Below, in pieces: positions 52,347 to 64,000 of a stretch of DNA of 64,000 bases. The position numbers were made by a program, and so were the translations under genes. This stretch comes from Bacteroidaceae bacterium. GTDB lineage: Bacteria; Bacteroidota; Bacteroidia; Bacteroidales; Bacteroidaceae. The notes beneath the pieces are model-generated. The model had not been told where the DNA came from. It searched no databases and worked only from the letters and a program-made list of their open reading frames with translations. Within the stretch, counting starts at the first letter, position 1. Every line of letters starts with the position of its first letter. Location of the stretch: NCBI GenBank assembly GCA_017483605.1, contig JAFUWG010000035.1, forward strand, positions 31,476-95,475, read 5' to 3'.

Positions 52347-53573
52347 ATGGACATCGTCGAAAGATTCTTGAAATATGTGTCGTTTGACACACAATCGGCG
52401 GAGGACACAGGCGTGACACCCTCCACCGAGAAGCAGCGAGTGTTTGCCAAATATCTGAAGGAAGAACTGATTGCAGAAGGGCTGCAAGACGTTGAATTAG
52501 ACGAACTTGGCTATCTCTACGCCACCCTGCCAGCCAACACCGACAAGCCAGTGCCCACCATCGGCTTCATCGCCCACATGGACACCAGCCCCGACGCGTC
52601 GGGCGAGAACGTGCGACCTCGCATCGTCACCCACTACGACGGCGGTGACATTGTGCTGTCTGAAGGCATCATCACCTCGCCCGAAAAGTTCCCCGAACTG
52701 CTTGACCACAAGGGGGAAGACCTCATCGTGACCGACGGAACGACCCTGCTCGGTGCCGACGACAAGGCGGGCATCGCCGAAATTGTGCAGGCGATGGTCT
52801 ATCTGCAACAACACCCCGACATCCAACACGGCACCATCCGCGTCGGTTTCAACCCCGACGAGGAGATTGGCCTTGGTGCCCATCACTTTGATGTGGAGAA
52901 ATTCGGCTGCGAGTTTGCCTACACGATGGACGGCAGCGAGGTGGGCGAAATCGAGTTTGAGAACTTCAACGCCGCCTCTGCCAAAATCACCATCAACGGC
53001 TGCTCCGTCCACCCGGGCTATGCCAAAGGCAAGATGCTGAATGCCGCCCGCATCGCCACCGAACTGGTGGGCATGTTGCCAGCCGACGAAACGCCCGAAA
53101 CGACAGAGGGTTACGAGGGTTTCTTCCATCTGACCAGCATCAGCGGCGGTTGCGAGAAAGCCCAACTCTCTTTCATCATCCGCGACCACGACCGCGAGTA
53201 TTTCGAGAGCCGCAAGACGGAGATGCAGGACGTGGTGGCAGCCATCAACGAGAAGTTTGGCGAGGGCGTGGCTGTACTCGAAATGAATGACCAATACTAC
53301 AACATGCGGGAGAAACTGGAGGACAAGATGTACATCATCGACATCGCCCAAGCCGCCATGACCGAAGCAGGCATCGAGCCGAAAATCAAGGCGATACGTG
53401 GCGGAACCGACGGTGCCCAACTCTCCTTCAAGGGTCTGCCCTGCCCCAACCTCTTCGCCGGTGGGCTCAACTTCCACGGCCCCCACGAGTTCTGCCCCGT
53501 GCAGAGTCTCGAAAAGGCGATGCAGACGGTGGTGAACATTTGTTCCATAACAGCAGAGAGGCTTGGCAAATAA
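52347..53573 (+). CDS. pepT: Peptidase T (tripeptide aminopeptidase)
   Basis: The 408-residue M20 metallopeptidase has the zinc sites: HMDTSPD (His and Asp), [25 protein letters not shown] with the Glu pair, [18 protein letters not shown] and [16 protein letters not shown] near the end. It is cytoplasmic and releases N-terminal residues from tripeptides. Complete and of normal length. The stop codon lies in the loop of the terminator that follows. Confidence 0.96.
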
Positions 53574-53669: not shown

Positions 53670-54332
53670 TCACTTCTTTTTCTTCTTAAACAAATCTTTT
53701 ACGCCACCCACAATTTTGTCGCCAGCCTTGGCACGTTCCTGATTGATGATGAGGTTCACCTCAGTGTCTTCGCACTTCACCACGACGATGCCAGAACGTT
53801 CCTCGTCGCCCTTATTCTCCTGCACTTCGACATTGATTTTGGTGGCAGCCTTATAGACCTCCACCCAATCGGGCTTCGATTCGACAACCCAGTCGTCATA
53901 GTTGCAGTTCACCTCCACACTCTGGGTGGCGCCTTCCTTGGGTTTGTACTTGAAGTCCAAGCGGGTATCGGAAAGCGAAAGTTGCACGTCCGTCCGCTTC
54001 GTTACCACCGGTTCGGGCTCGGGTTCGGGCACAGACTCCTCCACTTTCTTCTTTACGGATGTCTTCGTTTTCGTGCCGATACTTCTGATGTTGCTGTTGC
54101 AGATGGCAATCTGGTTGTCGCACATCTTCTTCTTGTCGGCGGCAGTATAAACAGCCTTTGCCGCTTGAAACTTCTTGATGGCAGCATTCTGCGACACCAC
54201 CGTGAGGGTCTTTTGCAGATTCTGCCCCTCCAGAAAGAGTTTGTCGCCCGTTGACGTCTGTGCCAAGGCAACCACCGATGCACATAGCATCAAAAACAAT
54301 GCCATGACTCGGGATAAATTTCTGATATTCAT
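53670..54332 (-). CDS. Secreted BACON-domain protein of the signalling operon
   Basis: The 220-residue protein has a signal peptide (about 1-25, ending VVALAQ), a helical TPR-like segment (about 30-80: AAIKKFQAAKAVYTAADKKK), an acidic Pro linker (ESVPEPEPEPVV) and a BACON domain (about 115-203) with WVVESKPDWVEVYK and ERSGIVVVKCEDTEVNLIIN. The end is KKKKK. BACON domains bind glycans or proteins outside the cytoplasm. It lies 18 bp after a kinase gene and is the last gene of the operon. It may sense or bind an envelope ligand; that is inference. Confidence 0.85.
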   Translation of the reverse strand: MNIRNLSRVMALFLMLCASVVALAQTSTGDKLFLEGQNLQKTLTVVSQNAAIKKFQAAKAVYTAADKKKMCDNQIAICNSNIRSIGTKTKTSVKKKVEESVPEPEPEPVVTKRTDVQLSLSDTRLDFKYKPKEGATQSVEVNCNYDDWVVESKPDWVEVYKAATKINVEVQENKGDEERSGIVVVKCEDTEVNLIINQERAKAGDKIVGGVKDLFKKKKK

Positions 54333-54350
54333 AGTTTTTATTATTTTTTG

Positions 54351-55838
54351 TTATGTTTTTACAGAGTCTGTCTGTTCAGGGTCAGCAGCAGGAGCAGCTC
54401 CTACATCCATCGTCTCGAGGAAAGACTTTAATTCGGCGGCACGTTGCTGAAACTCCTCGGCTGTGCCAGACTCGCCAGCCGCCAAAAGCACGGCAGCCGT
54501 CTCTTCGTAATAGCCGACAGCGTCATGCATCGCCTTCACCATCCGCTGCTGCTTCTGAGCCACCTCGGGCATCTGCACCCCATAGGTGTTGTCTGTAGTC
54601 AACAACACTTCTATCTGGTGGTATGCCTCGTATGCGTTCATCAGCATCTGGCCGTAGCCCTCCACGTCGTGCTCTGTTCCCAAGGCCTTCTCCGCCTCCT
54701 GGTCAGCACGTGCCAAACGACTGTTGAGGTCGGTCACAAAGGCAGACTTCGCTTGTTCCGCCTGAACCTGAGCGGCCTGCTCATCGGCAGCGTCGCTCTT
54801 CGTCTTGGCGAGGATGCCAACAATGCCCAGCACCACTACCAGAGCGGCAGCAGCCGCAATGAGCATGATTTTCGTCTTCTGAGTCATACCCCCTCCGCGG
54901 TTGGGGTTCATTGTCTCCAAGGCCACGCGCATCTCCGCCGAAGTCTGATAGCGTAATTCCTGCTTCTTCTGGCAAGCCGTAGCAATGATGCCGCGCAAGG
55001 CCTTGTTCTTCACCACACCGAGGGGCAGTTTCTCCTTCAACTGCTTCTCCAAAATCTCATGCCGTGCTCCCTCGAAAGGCGTGTGACCCACGATGCACTG
55101 GTAGAGTAGGATGCCCATGGCATAGATGTCTGTGGTCTGGTTCTGGTGCTGAATGTCGCCCAGTGCCAGTTCGGGTGCGGCATACTCTGGCTTGCCCATG
55201 AACTTGCCTGCCACAGTGAGCGACTTGTCGCTGGTGGTCAAAGTATTCATCTGCTTAGCGATGCCGAAATCAATGAGTTTGATGTGCCCGTCGCTGGTCA
55301 CCATGATGTTGGACGGGTCGATGTCGCGGTGGATGTAGCCAGCATCGTGCAGTGCCATGAGTCCCGAGAGCACGTTCATCACGACGGTGCGGGCAAAGTG
55401 TTCAGGGTCGTTGCGGTAGTCCTGCGAGAGTTTCACGGCGTAGGGCACTTCCTGCCCGTCGCGGTCAGTCGTCTTGCCTGCCATCAAGTCTGAGAGCGAG
55501 ACACCCGTCAGCAGTTCGCTCACCACGTGGAAGTGCTGTCGTACCTCGCCCGATGGTGTGTGCTCGTCTATCTCAATGAAACCCAACATCTCCACCAGAT
55601 TGTCGTTGCGTAACTGGATGGAAGCCTCGCGACGGGCACGTTCGATGGCCTGTGAAGGCAGGTCATCAAACATGAACTTGATGGCCACGGGGCGGGTCGC
55701 CTTGGTGCGCTCATTCACACAGAGGCCCTTGAACACTTGTCCCATGCCGCCAGCACCGATGGGCACATCAGCCGAGTCCAGTTGGTAGTAAATGCCTCTC
55801 TGTCTCTCGTCTTCTCCTTGTAATCTTATCAAAGCCAT
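54351..55838 (-). CDS. Membrane Ser/Thr protein kinase A, HRD motif with Asp for Lys
   Basis: The 495-residue protein has a kinase domain (about 15-310): glycine loop IGAGGMGQVFKG (27-38), VAIK with K54, E71, catalytic loop HRDIDPSN (170-177), DFG (190-192) and APE (221-223). The Lys usual two residues after the catalytic Asp is Asp174. After it come a membrane segment (about 323-344) and a periplasmic helical domain (about 350-495) rich in Ala and Glu. This is PknB-like topology without PASTA repeats. It lies 20 bp after the PP2C-A gene. Substrates are probably the FHA proteins of the operon (inference). Confidence 0.92.
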   Translation of the reverse strand: MALIRLQGEDERQRGIYYQLDSADVPIGAGGMGQVFKGLCVNERTKATRPVAIKFMFDDLPSQAIERARREASIQLRNDNLVEMLGFIEIDEHTPSGEVRQHFHVVSELLTGVSLSDLMAGKTTDRDGQEVPYAVKLSQDYRNDPEHFARTVVMNVLSGLMALHDAGYIHRDIDPSNIMVTSDGHIKLIDFGIAKQMNTLTTSDKSLTVAGKFMGKPEYAAPELALGDIQHQNQTTDIYAMGILLYQCIVGHTPFEGARHEILEKQLKEKLPLGVVKNKALRGIIATACQKKQELRYQTSAEMRVALETMNPNRGGGMTQKTKIMLIAAAAALVVVLGIVGILAKTKSDAADEQAAQVQAEQAKSAFVTDLNSRLARADQEAEKALGTEHDVEGYGQMLMNAYEAYHQIEVLLTTDNTYGVQMPEVAQKQQRMVKAMHDAVGYYEETAAVLLAAGESGTAEEFQQRAAELKSFLETMDVGAAPAADPEQTDSVKT

Positions 55839-55858
55839 ATTATTCTTAAGATTTTATT

Positions 55859-57391
55859 TTACTTATATTTCGATACAATTTCCTTCACCTTCTCGACAAT
55901 CGCGTCGATGCGCTTGTTGGCTGAGAGAGTGGATATATACTCCTCCGTCGCAGTGTTCTTGGCATTGCGCATGACCAGCAGGGCGGTACTCGGATGGAGT
56001 GAACCTGGCGGGTCTGCCAGTTCCTTCTTGATGCCAACAATAGTGTCATGGCACCGTCCTTCCGTCTTGCGGTCAAGGGCTGCCAACTGCGTCATTACTT
56101 CCTGGCGGCACTTCACCTTTTGCTGGGTAGCTTCGTGCTCAGTGCCAGCCTTGCAGTTCTTCATGCTTTGCAGGTTGGCAAGTATCTGTCCCGTGATATC
56201 AGCCACGGTGACAGAGGCTTCCGCCTTCTTCACCTTGTCCTGCTTGGGGGCGTCACCCTTCTGGGCGGCAGCAACTGGTTTCGATTGCTGAGCCTTCGCC
56301 AGAGCATCCTTCAGCGAATCGACCTCGGAAAGCAGTTCCTCCACCCGTTCGCCCAGAAGTTCGTTCTCGTAGGCGAGAATTTCCATCTTCTTGATGAGTT
56401 CTGTGCTACCAGCATCCTTCAGTTCGGTGTACATAGCAAGGGAACTCTTCAGGTTCTCCACCTCCCGCTCCTTGGCAGCCAATTGCTGCCGCAGTTCGTC
56501 CACCTGCACGCCACTGCCCGAACGGACCAACCCGACCACGTTGAACACGAGACTGACCACTAGCAGGGTTGTCAGGGCGGCAAGGGCAATTTTCAATTGA
56601 TTGCTCATCTTGTCTTTCAGTTTTGAATCGGTTTGTACTTCGACAATCGCCAGCGTGTGGTTGTCGTGTCCACCGCCACGAGAGAAGCCCATTTGATCCA
56701 CCTCGGCAGAAAGGCGATCTGCCAAGGTGCCCAACTCCAGATGGGAAATGAGCCGCTCGACCAATTGTTCATGAGGCATGATACCCCAAACACCGTCAGT
56801 ACAGAGTACGAATCGGTCACCACGACAGTAGGGCACTTCCTCGATTTCGGGTACATGGTTGGAGGTGGCTCCAAGGGCACGCTTGATGACGTTCGACTGG
56901 GGCGAAAGCCTCGCCTGTTCCTCGGTCATCGTCTGATTCTGTACCATCTCGCCCACCAGCGAGTGGTCGATGGTACGGAAGACTACCATACCGCCGTGCA
57001 CACGGTAACAGCGGCTATCACCCAGATGCACTACGAGGGCAGACTGCTCGTTGACGAGCACCGCTACCAGCGTGGACCCCATGCCGCACAGGGCTGGCTC
57101 CAGTTCCATCTGACGGTAGATGGCATCATTGGCACGACTCACCGCCATTTTGAGGGCATCAACAGGCGAGGCTTGCGGACTGCTGTTGTAGAGTGCCGTC
57201 ATGAACTCGCACTTGGCAATATAGGAAGCCGTCTTACCTCCTGGACCTCCACCCATACCGTCGCATACTACCAGCAGAGCACCTAACGGCGTGTCGACAA
57301 AGCCGCAGTCGTCCTGGTTCTCCTTTCTACCGCCCTGACGGGTGTTCACCACACCATTGAGCGGATAACGTTGCGAGGCGAATGGAGTCAT
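55859..57391 (-). CDS. PP2C-type Ser/Thr phosphatase A, membrane anchored
   Basis: The 510-residue protein has an N-terminal PP2C domain (about 10-252): GRKENQDDCGFV, VVCDGMGGGPGGKTAS, GMGSTLVAVLV, VVHLGDSRCYRV, VLCTDGVWGIM, GGGHDNHTLAIVEV. All metal-binding Asp positions are present. A membrane segment (about 267-289) is followed by a coiled coil (about 300-370) and a helical extracytoplasmic domain (about 400-510). It removes phosphate from Ser/Thr proteins and is expected to oppose kinase A encoded just downstream. Confidence 0.93.
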   Translation of the reverse strand: MTPFASQRYPLNGVVNTRQGGRKENQDDCGFVDTPLGALLVVCDGMGGGPGGKTASYIAKCEFMTALYNSSPQASPVDALKMAVSRANDAIYRQMELEPALCGMGSTLVAVLVNEQSALVVHLGDSRCYRVHGGMVVFRTIDHSLVGEMVQNQTMTEEQARLSPQSNVIKRALGATSNHVPEIEEVPYCRGDRFVLCTDGVWGIMPHEQLVERLISHLELGTLADRLSAEVDQMGFSRGGGHDNHTLAIVEVQTDSKLKDKMSNQLKIALAALTTLLVVSLVFNVVGLVRSGSGVQVDELRQQLAAKEREVENLKSSLAMYTELKDAGSTELIKKMEILAYENELLGERVEELLSEVDSLKDALAKAQQSKPVAAAQKGDAPKQDKVKKAEASVTVADITGQILANLQSMKNCKAGTEHEATQQKVKCRQEVMTQLAALDRKTEGRCHDTIVGIKKELADPPGSLHPSTALLVMRNAKNTATEEYISTLSANKRIDAIVEKVKEIVSKYK

Positions 57392-57471
57392 CGTTAATGT
57401 GCGTTCGTCTTTGTAGGTTATTGTTCTTTTTCCCTTGCGGGTATCTCATTAATTCCTTACTTCACAGTGTT

Positions 57472-58698
57472 TCATTTCACTTCGAGGGGGTATGCCAGAC
57501 GGGTCTTGGCATCGTAAAAGACAAAGATGCCCTTTTCGCCAATCACGTATTCAGCCTTGGTGATGTTATTCACACTGGTCTCCACACTCGTAGGGCGATA
57601 GAAGGCGTTGACCAGATCACGGTAACTGAAACTGTAGGAAGTCTCCTTCTTCGACTTCTTCTCTATGGCTTTCACCAGTTGGAAGACATCAATTGCAGCA
57701 CCTGGCTCAGTGCGGTACTGGAGGGTCACTTTCACGGTCTTATCGGCTCCGCACTTGGCACTCACGCTTGGCGTAAACTGCCCCAACACCAGATTGTCGC
57801 CCTGCTCCGTGATGTGTACCGACCTTACACGCGTGCCGTCGATGGCCACTTCATTCTTACTAAGTAGGATGTCGAAGATGGGCTGAAATTTCAAGTTCAC
57901 CTCCTTGCGTATCTCCACAATGTCACCCAAGGGGATTTTCTGTGTGCTGCCCGTCTCCTGCTGTACGGTAAAGAAGTCGTCAGCATAATTCTGCTCAGTG
58001 ATGATGCCGCGAATCTCACTGCCCTTCTTGTCCCTCACCACATCCAACAACTCGCTCTGCAGGAAGATGTCCTGATTGGGATTGACGGCACGGAAGGTAT
58101 ATTTCACCACGTCATCGAGTTTGAAAGACTGACGGCCTCCGTTATCGAGATAGAGCACAAGCATGGAATCGTTCTCCTCTGCATACTGACCCACAAACTC
58201 CTCGCCCGATTTGAGCGTATAGATGCGGTTGATGCCCGAGAGTTGGGTTTTCGGCCGACGCTCGCCTTTGATGCACTCCACATCGTCCCAGGGGATAACA
58301 TAGAGGTTTGGGGTCATCTCCTGGTACTTCACAACGACACCCCGTTCGAGGATGCGCACCTTGAGCACGTTCTTCGATGGCGAGGTGACATCGGCAAGGG
58401 TGAGTCCCTGTTTGCCGTTCTTGGCTTCGTAAGCATCATTGCGGTTGGCCCACTCCGCCCACGCCTTATCGAGTTCGCTGGAAGCGTAGTACTTCTCGTT
58501 GGCGATGGTGACACCGTCCTGAGCGAGGCACACCTCGGCACTGTCGGAGGCGAAGGTCAAATTGCCGGCGGCATCCTGCTTCTGGATGTAACCGCTCAAC
58601 ACCGACCCGTTCTTCAGGTAAAGCCGCTGCACGGTGATGGCCTGAGCGGCACCCGTAAAGGCCAGTGTGACGGCGATAGCTAATAGTATCTTTTTCAT
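57472..58698 (-). CDS. Secreted protein with repeated beta motifs, function unknown
   Basis: The 408-residue protein has a signal peptide (MKKILLAIAVTLAFTGAAQA). At least three copies of a short beta motif recur: LYLKNGSVLSGYI (about 26), YTLKSGEEFVGQYA (about 166) and DKKGSEIRGIITEQ (about 228). These look like SH3- or LSm-like strands with a G-S/E turn. A C-terminal helical part contains IDVFQLVKAIEKKSKKETSY. No enzyme motif is seen. It lies between the FHA-protease and PP2C-A genes, 8 bp after the former, so an envelope part of the same pathway is likely. No family recognised. Confidence 0.78.
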   Translation of the reverse strand: MKKILLAIAVTLAFTGAAQAITVQRLYLKNGSVLSGYIQKQDAAGNLTFASDSAEVCLAQDGVTIANEKYYASSELDKAWAEWANRNDAYEAKNGKQGLTLADVTSPSKNVLKVRILERGVVVKYQEMTPNLYVIPWDDVECIKGERRPKTQLSGINRIYTLKSGEEFVGQYAEENDSMLVLYLDNGGRQSFKLDDVVKYTFRAVNPNQDIFLQSELLDVVRDKKGSEIRGIITEQNYADDFFTVQQETGSTQKIPLGDIVEIRKEVNLKFQPIFDILLSKNEVAIDGTRVRSVHITEQGDNLVLGQFTPSVSAKCGADKTVKVTLQYRTEPGAAIDVFQLVKAIEKKSKKETSYSFSYRDLVNAFYRPTSVETSVNNITKAEYVIGEKGIFVFYDAKTRLAYPLEVK

Positions 58699-58705
58699 AT
58701 TATCG

Positions 58706-60322
58706 TCAGTTTACTTTATGTGGAGAATCTAAAAGTTCTTTCACGTATTTAGCCTTGATGCCATAGTTGTAGCCCTGTGTAAGCGACTGGCTAGCTCCAG
58801 CATGGTGAACACCTATCAACATGCCATATTTGTTAAATACGGGCGAGCCACTGGCACCTCCTGTAGTGGCAGCGTTGTAACTAAATTCATATTCTCCATT
58901 CTGCTGGGTGATGTCACCTCCTTGCGCATAGACTTGTATGCCTTCTTCATTTTTCCTGTTCTGTAAGCCCATGCCAGCTGGGAAGCCAATGGTATAAACA
59001 TGCTGACCAACTGTCAGCGATTCGTCGTCTGTTTCAATCGAGTCTGTCATATTAAGATAGGTACAATCAGATGCTGGCATACGCTTTGACACTGTCTGGA
59101 TAAGAGCAATGTCTTTGTTCGGGTCGTTACCAGCTGAAAGCACTTTGCACTTGATGGTGTTGTCCACGTCGAAGATATCGCCTTGCGGTATCAAAGCGAT
59201 GTAGTCCAGTTCTCCTTCCACCTTCAGCTGCGAGATGTAGGCCGACAAGCCCAACGGGATACTATTGGATATCAGCATTTCAGAGAACTTGCTCAATTTG
59301 TAAGTGAGTTGGCTTTTATACTCTTCCAGCAATTTTGCCTCAGGTTCAAAAAGCCACGGCTTCACCACATGCAAATTAGTGATGAGTTGCCCATTGTCGG
59401 AAATGAAAAATCCTGTGGCAGAATAGAGACCGATGTTGCCGTCGTGGTTGAACGCCTCAATGATTTCCTTCGAAGAGGCTCCGCTGGCATTGAGTGTATT
59501 AATTCCACCCGAAGACTTGTCGCGGAACAAAATAACCTTGGAAGGAAAATAGTAACCCTCTTTCAATAACCCGAGTTGCTGGGAGATCGTGTTCAGATTG
59601 TCTAAATCCAAGTCACCCATAGTTATATTGTAGTGATAGATACCTACTAACATAACCACCGAATGGTTGTAGCGTGCATATAATTCTCCATCAGTCAGTT
59701 CGCCACCCCCTCTCCCGTCGATGAGTTTCTTTACGCCCCAGCCAATACCAGCCAGAAGCACGGCACAGGCGGCTGCAATGAGGATGGGCTTCCACACCGA
59801 AGTAGGCCACTGCACGGGCGTGGTACGCAGGTTAACTGGCACACCGCCACAGACGACAGCACTAGTCTTCTTAATGCGGTAAGGTGTGTGGGGGGTGATC
59901 TTCATACCATCGACCGTGGTGCCGTTCTTGCTGTGGTCGATGATATAGACCTTGCCGTCGCGGCCCACCTTGATGGTGGCATGGTAGCGGCTGACAGTGC
60001 CGCCCGACACTTGGATGTCGTTGTTGAAGTGGGAACCAATGCCGTAGATGGCCTTGTAGGCGGAGTTGTCTTCGGGCAGGGGAACCTGCCCCCACTGCAG
60101 TTCCACATCGCCGAAGCGGATAGCGTCGCCTCGGCGCACGTTGACCTGTGCACCTGGGCGGATGGCCTGGTTCTGGATGAAGGTGCCGTTTCGGCTGCCC
60201 TTGTCCTCCAGCAGAATGTCGCCGTTGTTCATCAGGGTCAGTTCTGCATGGAGCGCACTCACGTTTTCACTGTGCAGTACGATGTCGCAACTCATATCGC
60301 GACCTATCTTCAGTAGTCTCAT
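58706..60322 (-). CDS. Double-FHA, transmembrane, trypsin-like protease fusion
   Basis: The 538-residue protein has FHA domain 1 (about 1-78: KIGRDMSCDIVL, SALHAEL, GSRNGTFI), FHA domain 2 (about 93-165: GIGSHFNNDIQV, VSRYHATI, HSKNGTTV) and a membrane segment (about 178-198). The extracytoplasmic part is a trypsin-like serine protease: H318 in ITNLHVVKP, D404 in DPNKDIALIQ and S491 in GGASGSPVFN, an HtrA-like set. FHA domains bind phosphothreonine, so the cytoplasmic half can read kinase activity while the protease acts in the periplasm. No PDZ domain follows. Flanked by FHA and kinase/phosphatase genes. Confidence 0.92.
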   Translation of the reverse strand: MRLLKIGRDMSCDIVLHSENVSALHAELTLMNNGDILLEDKGSRNGTFIQNQAIRPGAQVNVRRGDAIRFGDVELQWGQVPLPEDNSAYKAIYGIGSHFNNDIQVSGGTVSRYHATIKVGRDGKVYIIDHSKNGTTVDGMKITPHTPYRIKKTSAVVCGGVPVNLRTTPVQWPTSVWKPILIAAACAVLLAGIGWGVKKLIDGRGGGELTDGELYARYNHSVVMLVGIYHYNITMGDLDLDNLNTISQQLGLLKEGYYFPSKVILFRDKSSGGINTLNASGASSKEIIEAFNHDGNIGLYSATGFFISDNGQLITNLHVVKPWLFEPEAKLLEEYKSQLTYKLSKFSEMLISNSIPLGLSAYISQLKVEGELDYIALIPQGDIFDVDNTIKCKVLSAGNDPNKDIALIQTVSKRMPASDCTYLNMTDSIETDDESLTVGQHVYTIGFPAGMGLQNRKNEEGIQVYAQGGDITQQNGEYEFSYNAATTGGASGSPVFNKYGMLIGVHHAGASQSLTQGYNYGIKAKYVKELLDSPHKVN

Positions 60323-60355
60323 TGTTTTTCTGTATTAAATGGTGAATATGTGTTG

Positions 60356-60985
60356 TCAACCTCGCATCCTCCGCTTCGGTTCTTCTTTCTTAGGCTCTGC
60401 CTTGGGGGTATCCTGCTTCTTAGTGCCGTCGCTGGTTGGAGCAGCCAGCCTGGGGGTGCTCTTCGCTTTGGCAGGGACGGTATTCTTGTTGTGCACCTTG
60501 TTGAGCGAGTCAGTAACGTGCTGCTTGATGGAGTCTTGCAGTTGTTTCTCCTTCTTCAGCATTTTCTCCTTCTCGCGTTTCAGGTCGATCGAATCGACTG
60601 CCACGGGTGACTGCGGCGTCTCGGGCTTCGGGGTACCGCTGTCCTGGAGTGCATTGAAGAGCAGAACGCCTCCTACCACCAAAATAATGGCAAGCAGGGC
60701 AATAAGACCGTAACGCACAAGACTGGCACGGGGATTAGGCACTTGGTTCCAGTCGAGCCGTGCGACATGGGCGAAGGAGATGTTGTCCTTACGCGTAACG
60801 GGCACAGGCACGTTGGACGAGATGCGGATACCATTCACATAAGTGCCGTTGTGACTGGTATCAACAATGGTCATTTTTCCAGAGGATGCCACGTTGAGGG
60901 TGGCATGGCGACGGCTGATGACATCGGTGCTATCGTTGATGACGATATCGCAGCCCAACTCTCTTCCGATAGAATATACTTTCAT
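60356..60985 (-). CDS. FHA-domain single-pass membrane protein
   Basis: The 209-residue protein has an N-terminal FHA domain (about 1-85): SIGRELGCDIVI, DVISRRHATL, DTSHNGTYVNG. A membrane segment follows (about 92-112, LIALLAIILVVGGVLLF). The extracytoplasmic tail (about 118-209) has a Lys/Glu coiled coil and Lys/Pro-rich sequence ending in RRMRG. The phosphothreonine-binding residues (G7 R8, S24 R25 H27, N46 G47) are present. It may dock phosphorylated kinase or phosphatase partners to the membrane. 6 bp after PP2C-B. Confidence 0.9.
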   Translation of the reverse strand: MKVYSIGRELGCDIVINDSTDVISRRHATLNVASSGKMTIVDTSHNGTYVNGIRISSNVPVPVTRKDNISFAHVARLDWNQVPNPRASLVRYGLIALLAIILVVGGVLLFNALQDSGTPKPETPQSPVAVDSIDLKREKEKMLKKEKQLQDSIKQHVTDSLNKVHNKNTVPAKAKSTPRLAAPTSDGTKKQDTPKAEPKKEEPKRRMRG

Positions 60986-60991
60986 GGCAGG

Positions 60992-62017
60992 TTATGGGTT
61001 TTGAGGTTTTTCGTTAAGTTGCTTGGTAAGTGAGTCCACCCGTTCTGCCAGGCTCTTGATAGTGTCCTGCTGGGCTGCAACCCAGGCTGTCAGGCTGCTG
61101 TCGGCTGGCAGGGCGACGGATGCATGAGAACACTTGCCTGTGGCCTGAACGATGTTGAGGATGATGCTGATGATGCAGACTGCCGCCAGACACATCAGCG
61201 TGATTCTGACTTGTTTCGACATTTTAGGCTTGAGTTTTGAATTGTTTTTGGTTTCGACGACGGCAAGGGTCAGGTTGTCGTGACCACCACCGCTCATATG
61301 TCCGAGATTGTCAACGTAGGTGGCAATGTCATCCACCACCGCTCCGAGGACACTCTTTCTGTTAGAGAGGCGGTGAATCAGTTCTTTCTCGGGCATGATC
61401 CCGTGGATGCCATCGGAACAGAGCACGAAGCGATCACCCTTCTCGTAGGGCAACTCTGCCACATCGACCTGCACATCAGGTTGGATGCCGAGGGCACGGG
61501 TTATGATGTTGGACTGTGCCGAGAGGCGTGCCTGCTCTTCAGTGATGACACCTTGCCTGACGAGGTCGAAAACCATAGAGTGGTCGAAGGTTCGAAACAC
61601 TTTCCGACCGCCCCTGAGTTGATAGACACGGCTGTCGCCCACGTGTGCCACAAAGGCGGAACGTTCAGTGAGTAGCAGCACGGTGGCAGTGGAGCCCATA
61701 CCCTTCAGTGCTGGATTCTCATTACCCGCCTCAAGGATGGCAAGGTTGGCACGGAGGATGGCCTGCTTGAGAATATTGGAGGTCTCGTTGTCACGGCTCG
61801 CCTCCTCGATGCCCGCTACGATTTCCTGTACGGCAATGACCGATGCAGTCTTGCCGGCAGGACCTCCACCCATGCCATCGCAGACTGTGATGATATAGCC
61901 AAATTCGGTCTGTTTGAAGCCGTAGGTATCCTGATTTTCCGAGCGTCCTCCGATGCGGGACTCGGCAAACCCCACGAAGAGGTTGCTGTCGGCTTGATGT
62001 AATTGCTGTAGTTCCAT
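60992..62017 (-). CDS. PP2C-type Ser/Thr phosphatase B, membrane anchored
   Basis: The 341-residue protein is taken from ATG 62017 (MELQQLHQADSNLFVGFAES), 4 bases after the kinase-B stop; the frame extends upstream in the kinase gene but that part has no family features. The PP2C domain (about 10-255) has GRSENQDTYGF, VCDGMGGGPAGKTAS, MGSTATVLLL, AHVGDSRVYQL, VLCSDGIHGIM, GGGHDNLTLAVVE. A membrane segment (about 271-289) and a short coiled coil follow. It is very like PP2C-A in the catalytic part, so the two probably arose by duplication. Confidence 0.93.
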   Translation of the reverse strand: MELQQLHQADSNLFVGFAESRIGGRSENQDTYGFKQTEFGYIITVCDGMGGGPAGKTASVIAVQEIVAGIEEASRDNETSNILKQAILRANLAILEAGNENPALKGMGSTATVLLLTERSAFVAHVGDSRVYQLRGGRKVFRTFDHSMVFDLVRQGVITEEQARLSAQSNIITRALGIQPDVQVDVAELPYEKGDRFVLCSDGIHGIMPEKELIHRLSNRKSVLGAVVDDIATYVDNLGHMSGGGHDNLTLAVVETKNNSKLKPKMSKQVRITLMCLAAVCIISIILNIVQATGKCSHASVALPADSSLTAWVAAQQDTIKSLAERVDSLTKQLNEKPQNP

Positions 62018-62021
62018 AGAG

Positions 62022-63011
62022 TTATATGAGGAGAATGAGGATGATGAACACCAACAATGCAAGAGCGATGGCTGCGAAGACAACCATGAGGACATGCTCC
62101 TGCATCCAGTCGGATACGCGCTCAAAGAGGGACGGTTCAGGCATCAAGGCGGCAAGGATTGCATTCTTGAAGTCGAGAGCACGCTGGTAACGTTTCGACT
62201 GCTCTTTCTCGGTAGCCTTCCAGATGACCTGCATGAGTTTGCACGGTATCTTAGCATCGCCTGGCAGCGGTTCCTTCATCTGCTTGGTCAGGGTCGCAGT
62301 CTCGGTGTCGCACGACATAGGGTTCCGGTCGGTGAGCAGTTCGTAGAAGGTGATGCCCAAGGCGTATATGTCAGTAGTGGCGTTGATGGGGGCTGTCTGG
62401 CCGTTCTGTTCGGGTATCATCTGCTCGGGTGCGGCATATTCGGGGGTGCCGATGAAACCCGTGGAAGAGAACTTGCCAGCGGCATTGACGCGAGCGATGC
62501 CAAGATCCATCAGGCGAACATTGGACCCGTTCTCCACCATGATGTTGGAGGGCTTAATGTCGCGATGGATGACACCACGTGAGTGAACGTAATCAAGGGC
62601 GTCAAGCACGGCACAGATGGCACTGCAGATTTTCTCCACACGGTTAGGGGATCCAGCGAATCGCTTCACGTACTTATCAATATCCTCGCCTTGCACGTAA
62701 TGACTCAGGATGAATATAGGGCCCGACTCGCGGGCGTACTCGCAGTAGCCCACCATCTCCACGAGGTTGGGATGGCGAAAGGCAAGCGAAGCCTCTTGCC
62801 TTGCCCGCTCGCGAATCATCTTATTGTTGGCAAACGCATCCTTCACCTTCTTCACCGCTATCATCTCGCCGTTCTTGCACCTGTAGCCACAATAGACGTC
62901 GCCCATGGCACCACTGCCGAGGGGAGGTTCCTGCGGATTGTAGCAGTACCACTCGCCCATGGCGTACAGGTAGATGTAAGGATCGTTCGGCCGCTGAACT
63001 ACTGTCTGCAT
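62022..63011 (-). CDS. Tail-anchored Ser/Thr protein kinase B
   Basis: The 329-residue protein has a kinase domain (about 25-290): LGSGAMGDVYCG (31-42), IAVKKV (K54), E73, catalytic loop HRDIKPSN (149-156), DLG (169-171) in place of DFG, and the APE triplet in YAAPEQ. The catalytic residues are present. The last 23 residues are a hydrophobic helix (about 307-329), so it is anchored by its C-terminus with almost nothing outside; it probably senses through partners. It lies between FHA-1 and PP2C-B. Confidence 0.93.
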   Translation of the reverse strand: MQTVVQRPNDPYIYLYAMGEWYCYNPQEPPLGSGAMGDVYCGYRCKNGEMIAVKKVKDAFANNKMIRERARQEASLAFRHPNLVEMVGYCEYARESGPIFILSHYVQGEDIDKYVKRFAGSPNRVEKICSAICAVLDALDYVHSRGVIHRDIKPSNIMVENGSNVRLMDLGIARVNAAGKFSSTGFIGTPEYAAPEQMIPEQNGQTAPINATTDIYALGITFYELLTDRNPMSCDTETATLTKQMKEPLPGDAKIPCKLMQVIWKATEKEQSKRYQRALDFKNAILAALMPEPSLFERVSDWMQEHVLMVVFAAIALALLVFIILILLI

Positions 63012-63037
63012 CGTATCCCCTCCCCTACGCTATCCGT

Positions 63038-63796
63038 TTACATGCCAATGGTGCCGCCCTTGGCTCCGAAGGAGGAGCCGTCGAAGCCGATGGTGCCACC
63101 GTTAGGAGGGGTGAAACCGCCATCGAGGGGCTGAAAGCCCTCACCTGGACGGGTATAGCCGTCGGGCATGGAGGGCAGACCGGCATTGGCTAGCTCGTCT
63201 GTCTCAATGGAAATAAAGTTCTCAGACACTTTTAGTCCGAGGGCTGCAGCATCCACCAAGATAAGCAGCAACTCGTAGTTGTCGCCGATGGTGATGATGT
63301 CACCACTCTTACACTCTTCGGCTGAGAAGCCGAGGCTCACGCCGTTAAGCATGGTACCGTTGGTGGAACGTGCGTCATTGATGGAAGCAATAACCTTCTC
63401 TGGGTTCTTCATCTTTCTGACCACAAGCACGGCATGTTCACCCGACACGGTGCCTTCCGGCAGCACTATATCACATTCGGCACGATGGCCGATAGTATTC
63501 TGTCCTACATGGAGTGGCCAGTACTCACCAGCCATGGTTCGTGACACACTATAGAGGAAACCCACCACTGGCTTACCTGAAGCTGTTGGATGCTGTGATG
63601 GCGGCATCATTTGTGTCTGACCAAGCGACGATTGAGGATTCTGCACGTTGGGACGTGGAGCGTCTTCCATTCCCGACACAACGGTTCCATGAGCCGCGGG
63701 GCGGTATCCACCTCTGGAATAGAAACTGGAACTGGCTCCGTAGGTGGTGGAGTCAGCAGGCTCCAAACCCTGAATGACGGTTTTGTTTTGTGACAT
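63038..63796 (-). CDS. Cytoplasmic FHA-domain protein with repeated T-[VI]-x-x-G motifs
   Basis: The 252-residue soluble protein has a Ser/Pro/Gly-rich N-terminal region (about 1-75), a FHA domain (about 90-180: NTIGHRAECDIVL, TVSGEHAVLVV, ARSTNGTMLNG) and a Gly/Pro-rich C-terminal tail. Short motifs recur at both ends: KTVIQGLEP, GTVVSGMED, GGTIGFDG and GGTIGM. They could be kinase target sites for FHA binding. First gene of the nine-gene signalling operon, 26 bp before kinase B, with a -7 box upstream. Confidence 0.88.
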   Translation of the reverse strand: MSQNKTVIQGLEPADSTTYGASSSFYSRGGYRPAAHGTVVSGMEDAPRPNVQNPQSSLGQTQMMPPSQHPTASGKPVVGFLYSVSRTMAGEYWPLHVGQNTIGHRAECDIVLPEGTVSGEHAVLVVRKMKNPEKVIASINDARSTNGTMLNGVSLGFSAEECKSGDIITIGDNYELLLILVDAAALGLKVSENFISIETDELANAGLPSMPDGYTRPGEGFQPLDGGFTPPNGGTIGFDGSSFGAKGGTIGM

Positions 63797-63874: not shown

Positions 63875-64000
63875 TTAAAAAAATGCATACTTAACTTGTC
63901 CTATAGGGCGATGGTTGAGAAAGTTGAAATACTGCAACATTGTGAAAGCCGCCACTTTGGCAGCCATTCTCGCAAAGAGTCCATCTGGCTGCTTTGCATA
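63875..64000 (-). CDS. 3' end of a probable transposase gene (cut by window)
   Basis: The minus-strand frame is open from base 64000 to TAA at 63877-63875, 41 codons. It reads DGLFARMAAKVAAFTMLQYF and NHRPIGQVKYAFF, which resembles the C-terminal ends of IS982-like DDE transposases in Bacteroidales; I am not sure of the family. The IS end should lie within the next tens of bases, close to or inside the promoter of the FHA operon. No terminal inverted repeat can be named with only one end visible. Confidence 0.5.
   Translation of the reverse strand, partial: YAKQPDGLFARMAAKVAAFTMLQYFNFLNHRPIGQVKYAFF

Follow-up and report, generated by a model that had tools for sequence, protein, structure and literature searches.

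A nine-gene cluster in the stretch of DNA analysed here (64,000 nucleotides of contig JAFUWG010000035.1, assembly GCA_017483605.1; hereafter the window) may encode an accessory trans-envelope phosphothreonine receptor module, a reading to which we give just short of an even chance. In such a module, a receptor kinase (KinA) would act with a cognate secreted partner, and FHA domains would provide docking onto a membrane protease. The host is a rumen bacterium related to Prevotella (genome G000; 3.06-Mb assembly, 56 contigs, 81.5% complete). Nine minus-strand open reading frames (ORFs) occupy positions 53670-63796 with intergenic gaps of 4-80 bp, as a preliminary description of this DNA had reported, in the transcription order g1 (FHA1), g2 (KinB), g3 (PP2C-B), g4 (FHA domain plus transmembrane helix; FHA-TM), g5 (FHA-FHA-TM-protease), g6, g7 (PP2C-A), g8 (KinA) and g9 (BACON protein). 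Pfam assigned families to eight of the nine products and confirmed the FHA (g1, g4 and twice in g5), kinase, PP2C, protease and BACON content claimed earlier; g6 matched no family at E 0.05. A Kyte-Doolittle scan of the window's own cluster (locus L039) predicted one transmembrane helix in six products (g2, g3, g4, g5, g7, g8), and an outer stretch ends five of the nine. KinB has no outer domain because it ends in its membrane helix, g1 has no helix, and the sole helix of g6 and of g9 is N-terminal and was read by eye as a signal peptide. The earlier statement that most products cross the membrane once and end outside the cytoplasm thus fits only part of the set. Among the matches listed, the literature searched held no description of the nine-gene set. 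What is new here is the conserved inside and changed outside of the module together with a protease swap, a KinA class that tracks the neighbouring secreted gene, and four conserved threonines in FHA1.

A layout that we call type 1 was found in 28 loci, L039 among them; L010/L011 and L013/L016 are 98-99% identical and L027/L028 93%. It runs FHA1-[KinA]-KinB-PP2C-FHA/TM-g5 and then g6. The order was seen in 24 of 24 loci whose contig reaches FHA1, in several Bacteroidales families (the contig of L016 ends inside g5), and g6 came next in 26 of 28, L016 and L020 being cut by contig ends. A scan of named genomes gave eight loci (Prevotella, Prevotellaceae, Bacteroidales), all of which kept this order to the limits of their contigs. 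The exact nine-gene order occurs in the window, L013 (Prevotella pectinovora P4-76) and L018; L010/L011 differ from it by one extra FHA gene and a second KinA. Because the order recurs in other genera and families, it is more than chance, and the confinement to this genome that would have spoken against the proposed circuit proved false. The "duplicated kinase/phosphatase pair" of the preliminary description is a loose term: the window has two of each, but the relatives' PP2C types are 41-50% and kinase types 30-34% identical to each other over the aligned parts, and only 10 of 28 type-1 loci have a second PP2C. In type 2 (seven loci of the same family: L029, L031-L033, L035, L037, L038; L032 is cut by a contig end), the order is g5-FHA-PP2C-KIN/FHA-FHA-giant kinase of ~1270 aa, KIN/FHA being a kinase-FHA fusion and the FHA next to the giant kinase being FHA-TM. 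Relatives elsewhere in the phylum (L092-L095) have a further layout with several kinases; in L093 (G1013, outside the class), at least seven kinase genes surround the FHA-FHA-protease gene within 20 kb.

Identity to the window was 43-88% for kinase, PP2C and FHA domains and 15-33% for the outer parts of KinA and PP2C-A. At the level of sequence, the cytosolic halves are conserved and the periplasmic halves divergent. KinA ectodomains fell into two classes, with no cross-match at E 1e-4 among 120 pairs by pairwise BLASTP. Profiles of these classes (eB and eW) were run on all ORFs of the 28 type-1 loci, 11 loci of other layouts and four loci flanking a type VI secretion system (T6SS). Ectodomain eB was found in five loci (window, L010, L011, L013, L018); a BACON gene lay directly downstream in 5/5, and none of the five had a WG-repeat gene. 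Ectodomain eW (E ~1e-5 or better) was found in 15 loci (L014, L015, L017, L019, L021, L022, L024-L028, L030, L088, L090, L091), all with a WG-repeat gene and none with BACON. Profile building had used 8 of the 15 eW and 4 of the 5 eB loci; the other seven and one are independent. One further eW kinase with WG was found in a Phocaeicola massiliensis record. Weak matches were left uncounted: to eW at E 0.02-0.06, three kinases located distally in T6SS loci, all with WG next to them downstream; to eB, two L093 kinases (E 0.3-0.4). A WG gene without an eW kinase occurred in L020, L023 and L089, where the contig start cuts KinB, and in L034, whose KinA is in neither class. WG genes were present in 19 of the 28 type-1 loci, outer-membrane barrels in 14 (including that of L013, which lies upstream and may be unrelated), lipoproteins in 13 and S41 proteases in 6; none of the four was found in the 11 loci of other layouts or in the window. 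We take the KinA sensor and its putative ligand to be inherited together, although shared ancestry could give part of this association. Exchange is argued by L010/L011 and L014/L015, which share nearly the same core yet differ in partner: L014/L015 carry WG, outer-membrane protein and lipoprotein genes where L010/L011 carry BACON.

Ten threonines lie in the low-conservation tails of the window's FHA1. Of these, T6 and T38 were kept in 20/20 loci and T235 and T249 in 19/20, the other six in 1-11; otherwise, only neighbouring glycines, the start and one aspartate reached 90% conservation. The four threonines are natural candidates for phosphorylation and FHA docking. FHA proteins of the GarA/OdhI kind carry a threonine phospho-switch. 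FHA1 resembles them in having conserved threonines outside its FHA domain, and GarA and OdhI chains were found by the g5 profile; unlike them, FHA1 has four such threonines, on both sides of the domain, and is encoded with two other FHA proteins. FHA domains read phosphothreonine through GR, SxxH and NG residues. In the first FHA domain of g5, Arg was kept in 17/23 sequences, Ser and His in 23/23 and Asn in 22/23.

The His-Asp-Ser triad of g5 was invariant in 23/23 sequences in each of two overlapping sets (17 type-1 plus 6 type-2; 23 type-1), and g5 is predicted by fold family and triad to be a trypsin-like serine protease. Its relatives with solved structures in the profile search were glutamyl endopeptidase, Spl and DegP-type proteases; the PDZ domain expected of the HtrA family was not found by Pfam scan at E 0.1. 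A protease swap was clear from sequence comparison. The FHA-FHA halves of L014/L015 are 92-96% identical to those of L009/L010, but the proteases are 25-26% identical; to the proteases of L020-L022, by contrast, those of L014/L015 are 51-58% identical, although the FHA-FHA halves of the two groups share only 64-71% identity. The triad stayed intact. Neither g6 nor the PP2C-A outer domain moved with the protease (56-57% and 30-33% identity to the window, respectively, in L010 and L014/L015 alike), and protease type is not bound to the partner, as L017 and L019 combine WG with a protease of the window's type. L040, L041 and L042 encode proteases that are related to the g5 outer domain but have no FHA (open frames of 373-867 aa), and these are a possible source pool for domain swaps. 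For g6, the NCBIfam LA_0442/LA_0875 domain matched below its cut-off. AlphaFold2 modelled g6 as a chain of small beta-barrels with a middling predicted local distance difference test (pLDDT) of 67.9; local matches were to Sm/SH3-like and small lipoprotein folds (2rb6 and 2k57; template-modelling scores 0.76 and 0.74 by target length, E ~0.3), and no fold match was found at E 0.001. The model thus gives only a hint of small beta-barrel repeats.

Several observations weigh against a receptor module of this kind. The association of class with partner was counted without regard to kinship, with few independent swaps, and the BACON class has four distinct members only. The KinA of L034, the second KinA of L010/L011 and the extra kinases of L034, L036 and L091 belong to neither class, and the first KinA of L025 matches one eW member pairwise (E 8e-7) but not the eW profile. 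KinB lacks the terminal helix in L018, L021 and L022, and reads HMD rather than HRD in L027, L028, L030 and L036. In the second FHA domain of g5, the GR arginine was kept in 0/23 sequences (Ser, His and Asn in 23/23); because of this, the domain may not bind phosphothreonine in the usual way. The structure model of g5 had a pLDDT of 51, too poor for use. The second KinA of L010 (L010:17630-20066) is followed by a protein without a Pfam family, and the two are perhaps a third sensor-partner pair.

The module is accessory, judging from its patchy occurrence. Among 399 genomes sampled from the family, 28 had a g5-like match at E 1e-20, and 22 had the FHA and protease parts together; the six matching the protease part only were excluded from the cluster count, and the three of these that were fetched had a protease without FHA. 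In the order sample (n=393), full g5 was found in G000, in G057 and in one genome from each of four other families; in the phylum sample (n=345), it was found in G000 and in four genomes that all belong to a single family outside the class. Within the genus (n=45), 13 genomes passed E 0.001 but both g5 halves were matched in only two, G000 and G021. The pepT gene of G021 is 87% identical to the window's, compared with 64-72% for ten other genomes; its cluster is distant, with 40% identity for FHA1 and 43% for the KinB kinase domain (69% and 81% for L010). Because pepT is close but the cluster far more distant, recent vertical descent does not seem to account for the two clusters of the genus.

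An Hsp15-like S4 gene, pth and L25 directly follow pepT, in opposite orientation and with no cluster, in 7 of 10 congeners examined, and the S4 match begins 110-349 bp past pepT; in G034, G006 and G021, the three genes were not found in the fetched stretch. In G000 the cluster follows pepT, and the contig ends 204 bp beyond g1, inside the end of an IS982-family transposase; S4, pth and L25 begin 346 bp inside another contig, C32. In the simplest reading of these sequences, insertion of the cluster separated pepT from the S4 gene and an IS982 copy marks one border, although the sequence between the two contigs is unassembled and the insertion site is seen from one side. The transposase tail matched neither Pfam nor the transposase near the L026 cluster, and was identified through plasmid records. 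Two plasmid records match g5, one of them (140 kb, Phocaeicola massiliensis) over 99% of its length and with a type-1 cluster; no phage record in the collection searched contains g5. Carriage by phage or plasmid was rejected; the plasmid label of the P. massiliensis record may be an assembly matter.

Kinase, PP2C and FHA genes also accompany T6SS in other phyla. In Pseudomonas aeruginosa, TagQRST-PpkA-PppA-Fha1 comprises an inner-membrane kinase activated via an envelope module, a phosphatase that resets it and an FHA protein substrate (PMC12607579). As in that pathway, a membrane Ser/Thr kinase, a PP2C and an FHA protein are encoded together here, and the module adjoins a T6SS locus in four genomes. 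The four conserved FHA1 threonines would be compatible with an FHA protein phosphorylated on threonine. By analogy, the module may work like the PpkA-PppA-Fha pathway. It differs in having two kinases, two PP2Cs, FHA-TM, FHA-FHA-TM-protease, g6 and BACON/WG proteins. Relatives of TagQRST were not noticed, though no search was aimed at them. TssC was searched in the 399 family genomes and 15 more. The cluster genomes checked numbered 37: 22 from the family sample, four from the order, four from the phylum, six behind the named loci, and G021. TssC was found in 8 of them and was linked to the cluster in four (G057, G203, G229, G679); linkage was unseen in the other 33, where contig ends limit the view. 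The cluster in G057, G203 and G229 (loci L024, L025 and L026) continues into WG, a ClpB/ClpV-type gene, a small TssB-like gene and TssC (Pfam E 8e-132 in L024), and the T6SS locus runs on to a second kinase/FHA, kinase and WG set. L082, L083 and L084 (G229, G203 and G057) show this far end, with one kinase/FHA gene and a kinase that has a WG-repeat gene after it; the T6SS locus is therefore bracketed by two phospho-signalling sets. L088 (G679, of another family) has ClpB/ClpV-type and TssB-like genes and a TssC fragment at its contig end. The words kinase and FHA do not occur in the main text of two Bacteroidota T6SS papers.

These linkages raise the possibility that the cluster is a post-translational T6SS regulator of the PpkA-PppA-Fha type, with the T6SS unassembled here or the regulator kept alone. 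A g6 fragment lies beside a T6SS locus on a G084 contig, and TssC, present in 32/399 family genomes, is enriched among those with the cluster (6/22 compared with 26/377; 1.8 co-occurrences expected; Fisher p 0.005, with kinship ignored and all six in one genus). However, 29 of 37 cluster genomes have no TssC, on which ground a simple T6SS-regulator reading was rejected. G263 (one contig, 99% complete) and G104 (99%) carry the cluster without TssC, and in G1144 TssC lies on a 33-kb contig and the cluster on a 25-kb contig. Within the ≤20 kb fetched around each, 8 of 12 TssC loci in the same score class gave no match to the kinase, PP2C or FHA profiles, and neither did any of the three inspected from other classes. 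G000 itself gave no TssC and no TssB-like match (the latter search without a positive control), an absence that is uncertain at its completeness; because no T6SS was found there, the module was not filed with the T6SS pathway. We consider a T6SS regulator unlikely. The absence of secretion genes noted earlier applies to G000, and the consistent linkage to a secretion system that would have spoken against an envelope circuit was seen in a minority of 4/37. On present sequences, most of the genomes with the module lack T6SS, and a minority, in two families, have the two joined.

Two other functions were considered. The actinobacterial cluster pknB-pknA-pbpA-rodA-pstP-fhaB-fhaA (PMC6554272) has similar parts in one locus (two kinases, a membrane PP2C and FHA adaptors), and a regulator of growth or division that controls peptidoglycan synthesis, like PknA/PknB-PstP-FhaA-FhaB, is conceivable. 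We consider this quite unlikely. The actinobacterial locus is conserved throughout Actinobacteria, whereas the cluster is found in 2/45 genus and 22/399 family genomes and has a protease and secreted partners added. The Pfam scan found no PASTA domain (KinA and KinB reached 151 and 184 bits against the PknB_PASTA cut-off of 450), rodA and pbpA are not among the nine genes, and no recurrent cell-wall gene appeared in the relatives' flanks, which were read by eye. A KKP-like system, acting against phage or as a toxin-antitoxin system whose toxic kinases are freed when phosphatase control is lost, would suit the patchy occurrence, the neighbouring insertion sequence and the two kinases with PP2C; the kinases also score against PADLOC kinase models. 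These PADLOC matches are confined to the kinase domains of KinA and KinB, however, and the defence-system reading was rejected. In the KKP survey (PMC11341870), a PP2C gene precedes two kinase genes, mostly in prophage, some kinases are fused to FHA, and the main text does not use the word transmembrane. Here the order differs, FHA is on separate proteins, membrane helices occur in six of the nine products and two others look secreted, a protease is present, and g5 had no phage match. A KKP-like function is improbable.

We return to the receptor module. The cluster probably senses a protein outside the inner membrane via a receptor-like kinase and signals by threonine tagging to a membrane-anchored protease. 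KinA would be a receptor kinase that crosses the membrane once and recognises, through its periplasmic domain, a secreted protein encoded nearby (BACON here, WG-repeat in relatives). KinA and tail-anchored KinB would phosphorylate threonines, and the four conserved ones in the tails of FHA1, a soluble adaptor, are the likeliest targets. FHA-TM and FHA-FHA-TM-protease would dock on these phosphothreonines through their FHA domains, gathering the protease into a complex, so that cytosolic phosphorylation state could control periplasmic trypsin-like cleavage, possibly of g6 or g9; the membrane-bound PP2Cs would reset the circuit. In a few lineages, the same core may be wired to a T6SS locus. The anatomy is firm at the sequence level; we infer the wiring. 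The transmembrane phosphothreonine circuit facing the envelope that was proposed earlier is in part supported by the conserved catalytic and most FHA residues, the predicted topology and the four FHA1 threonines, and joint inheritance of the KinA ectodomain and the secreted gene beside it would give that circuit a specific sensing step. The outward-facing parts look exchangeable between relatives and the inner machinery constant. A broader proposal, to which we give rather less than an even chance, is a receptor-kinase chassis: a fixed cytosolic phosphothreonine core (kinases, PP2C and three FHA proteins) into which recombination would plug matched sets of a KinA ectodomain with its secreted partner (either BACON or a WG-repeat protein accompanied by outer-membrane protein, lipoprotein and S41 protease), along with either of two types of periplasmic protease, with output wired to T6SS in at least two Bacteroidales families. 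If the receptor-module reading is right, gut and rumen Bacteroidales possess a phospho-receptor system that signals from the outside in, for which candidate ligands, phosphosites and a protease output can be named, and their natural domain exchanges offer a set for testing sensor-ligand pairing.

Table 1. Positions of the cluster genes, candidate residues and flanking elements in the window.
Feature	Position	Strand	Evidence
g1 FHA1, FHA protein without predicted transmembrane helix, long low-conservation tails	63038..63796	-	Pfam FHA E 6e-12; alignment n=18, count n=20 loci
FHA1 Thr6, candidate phosphoacceptor	63779..63781	-	kept 20/20 loci
FHA1 Thr38, candidate phosphoacceptor	63683..63685	-	kept 20/20 loci
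FHA1 Thr235, candidate phosphoacceptor	63092..63094	-	kept 19/20 loci
FHA1 Thr249, candidate phosphoacceptor	63050..63052	-	kept 19/20 loci
g2 KinB, Ser/Thr kinase, C-terminal tail anchor, no outer domain	62022..63011	-	Pfam Pkinase E 1e-42; HRDIKPSN, DLG, APE
g3 PP2C-B, phosphatase, one transmembrane helix, ~29-aa outer tail	60992..62017	-	PP2C_2 E 4e-17; DGMG, GDSR, SDG, DN motifs
g4 FHA-TM, FHA, one transmembrane helix, Lys-rich outer tail of ~100 aa	60356..60985	-	Pfam FHA E 3e-16; composition
g5 FHA-FHA-TM-trypsin-like protease (predicted)	58706..60322	-	Pfam FHA (twice), Trypsin_2 E 8e-17; alignment
g5 His318, predicted catalytic triad	59369..59371	-	invariant in both g5 alignment sets
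g5 Asp404, predicted catalytic triad	59111..59113	-	invariant in both g5 alignment sets
g5 Ser493, predicted catalytic triad (GxSGS)	58844..58846	-	invariant in both g5 alignment sets
g6 secreted protein, perhaps small beta-barrel repeats	57472..58698	-	no Pfam family; AlphaFold2 model pLDDT 67.9
g7 PP2C-A, phosphatase, transmembrane helix, ~220-aa outer domain	55859..57391	-	PP2C_2 E 6e-15; motifs
g8 KinA, Ser/Thr kinase, transmembrane helix, ~150-aa outer domain	54351..55838	-	Pkinase E 1e-34; HRDIDPSN, DFG, APE
KinA outer domain, class eB (BACON-associated), approximate limits	54354..54812	-	pairwise BLASTP and class profiles
g9 secreted BACON-domain protein, predicted cognate partner of KinA	53670..54332	-	Pfam BACON E 5e-10; BACON after 5/5 eB kinases
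IS982-family transposase C-terminus at contig end, just upstream of cluster	63878..64000	-	61% identity over all 41 residues to annotated IS982 transposase, E 2e-10
pepT, flanking gene at insertion site	52347..53573	+	peptidase T above cut-off

PP2C-B most likely starts at the ATG at 62017 and not at the upstream TTG of the ORF list. Promoter and terminator scans gave sites no more frequently than in shuffled sequences; one promoter-like site (11/12) lies just upstream of g1. G000 has three kinase matches, two of them in the cluster. A kinase-like gene on contig C35 (L003:1165-2094), after a gene that looked mutS-like by eye, reads HLD and lacks DFG, again by eye, and because of this it is perhaps a pseudokinase. 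Of five FHA matches in G000, four are in the cluster; the fifth, on C52 (L008:1447-1989), is a small protein with N-terminal Cys pairs beside what was read by eye as an AraC-like gene.

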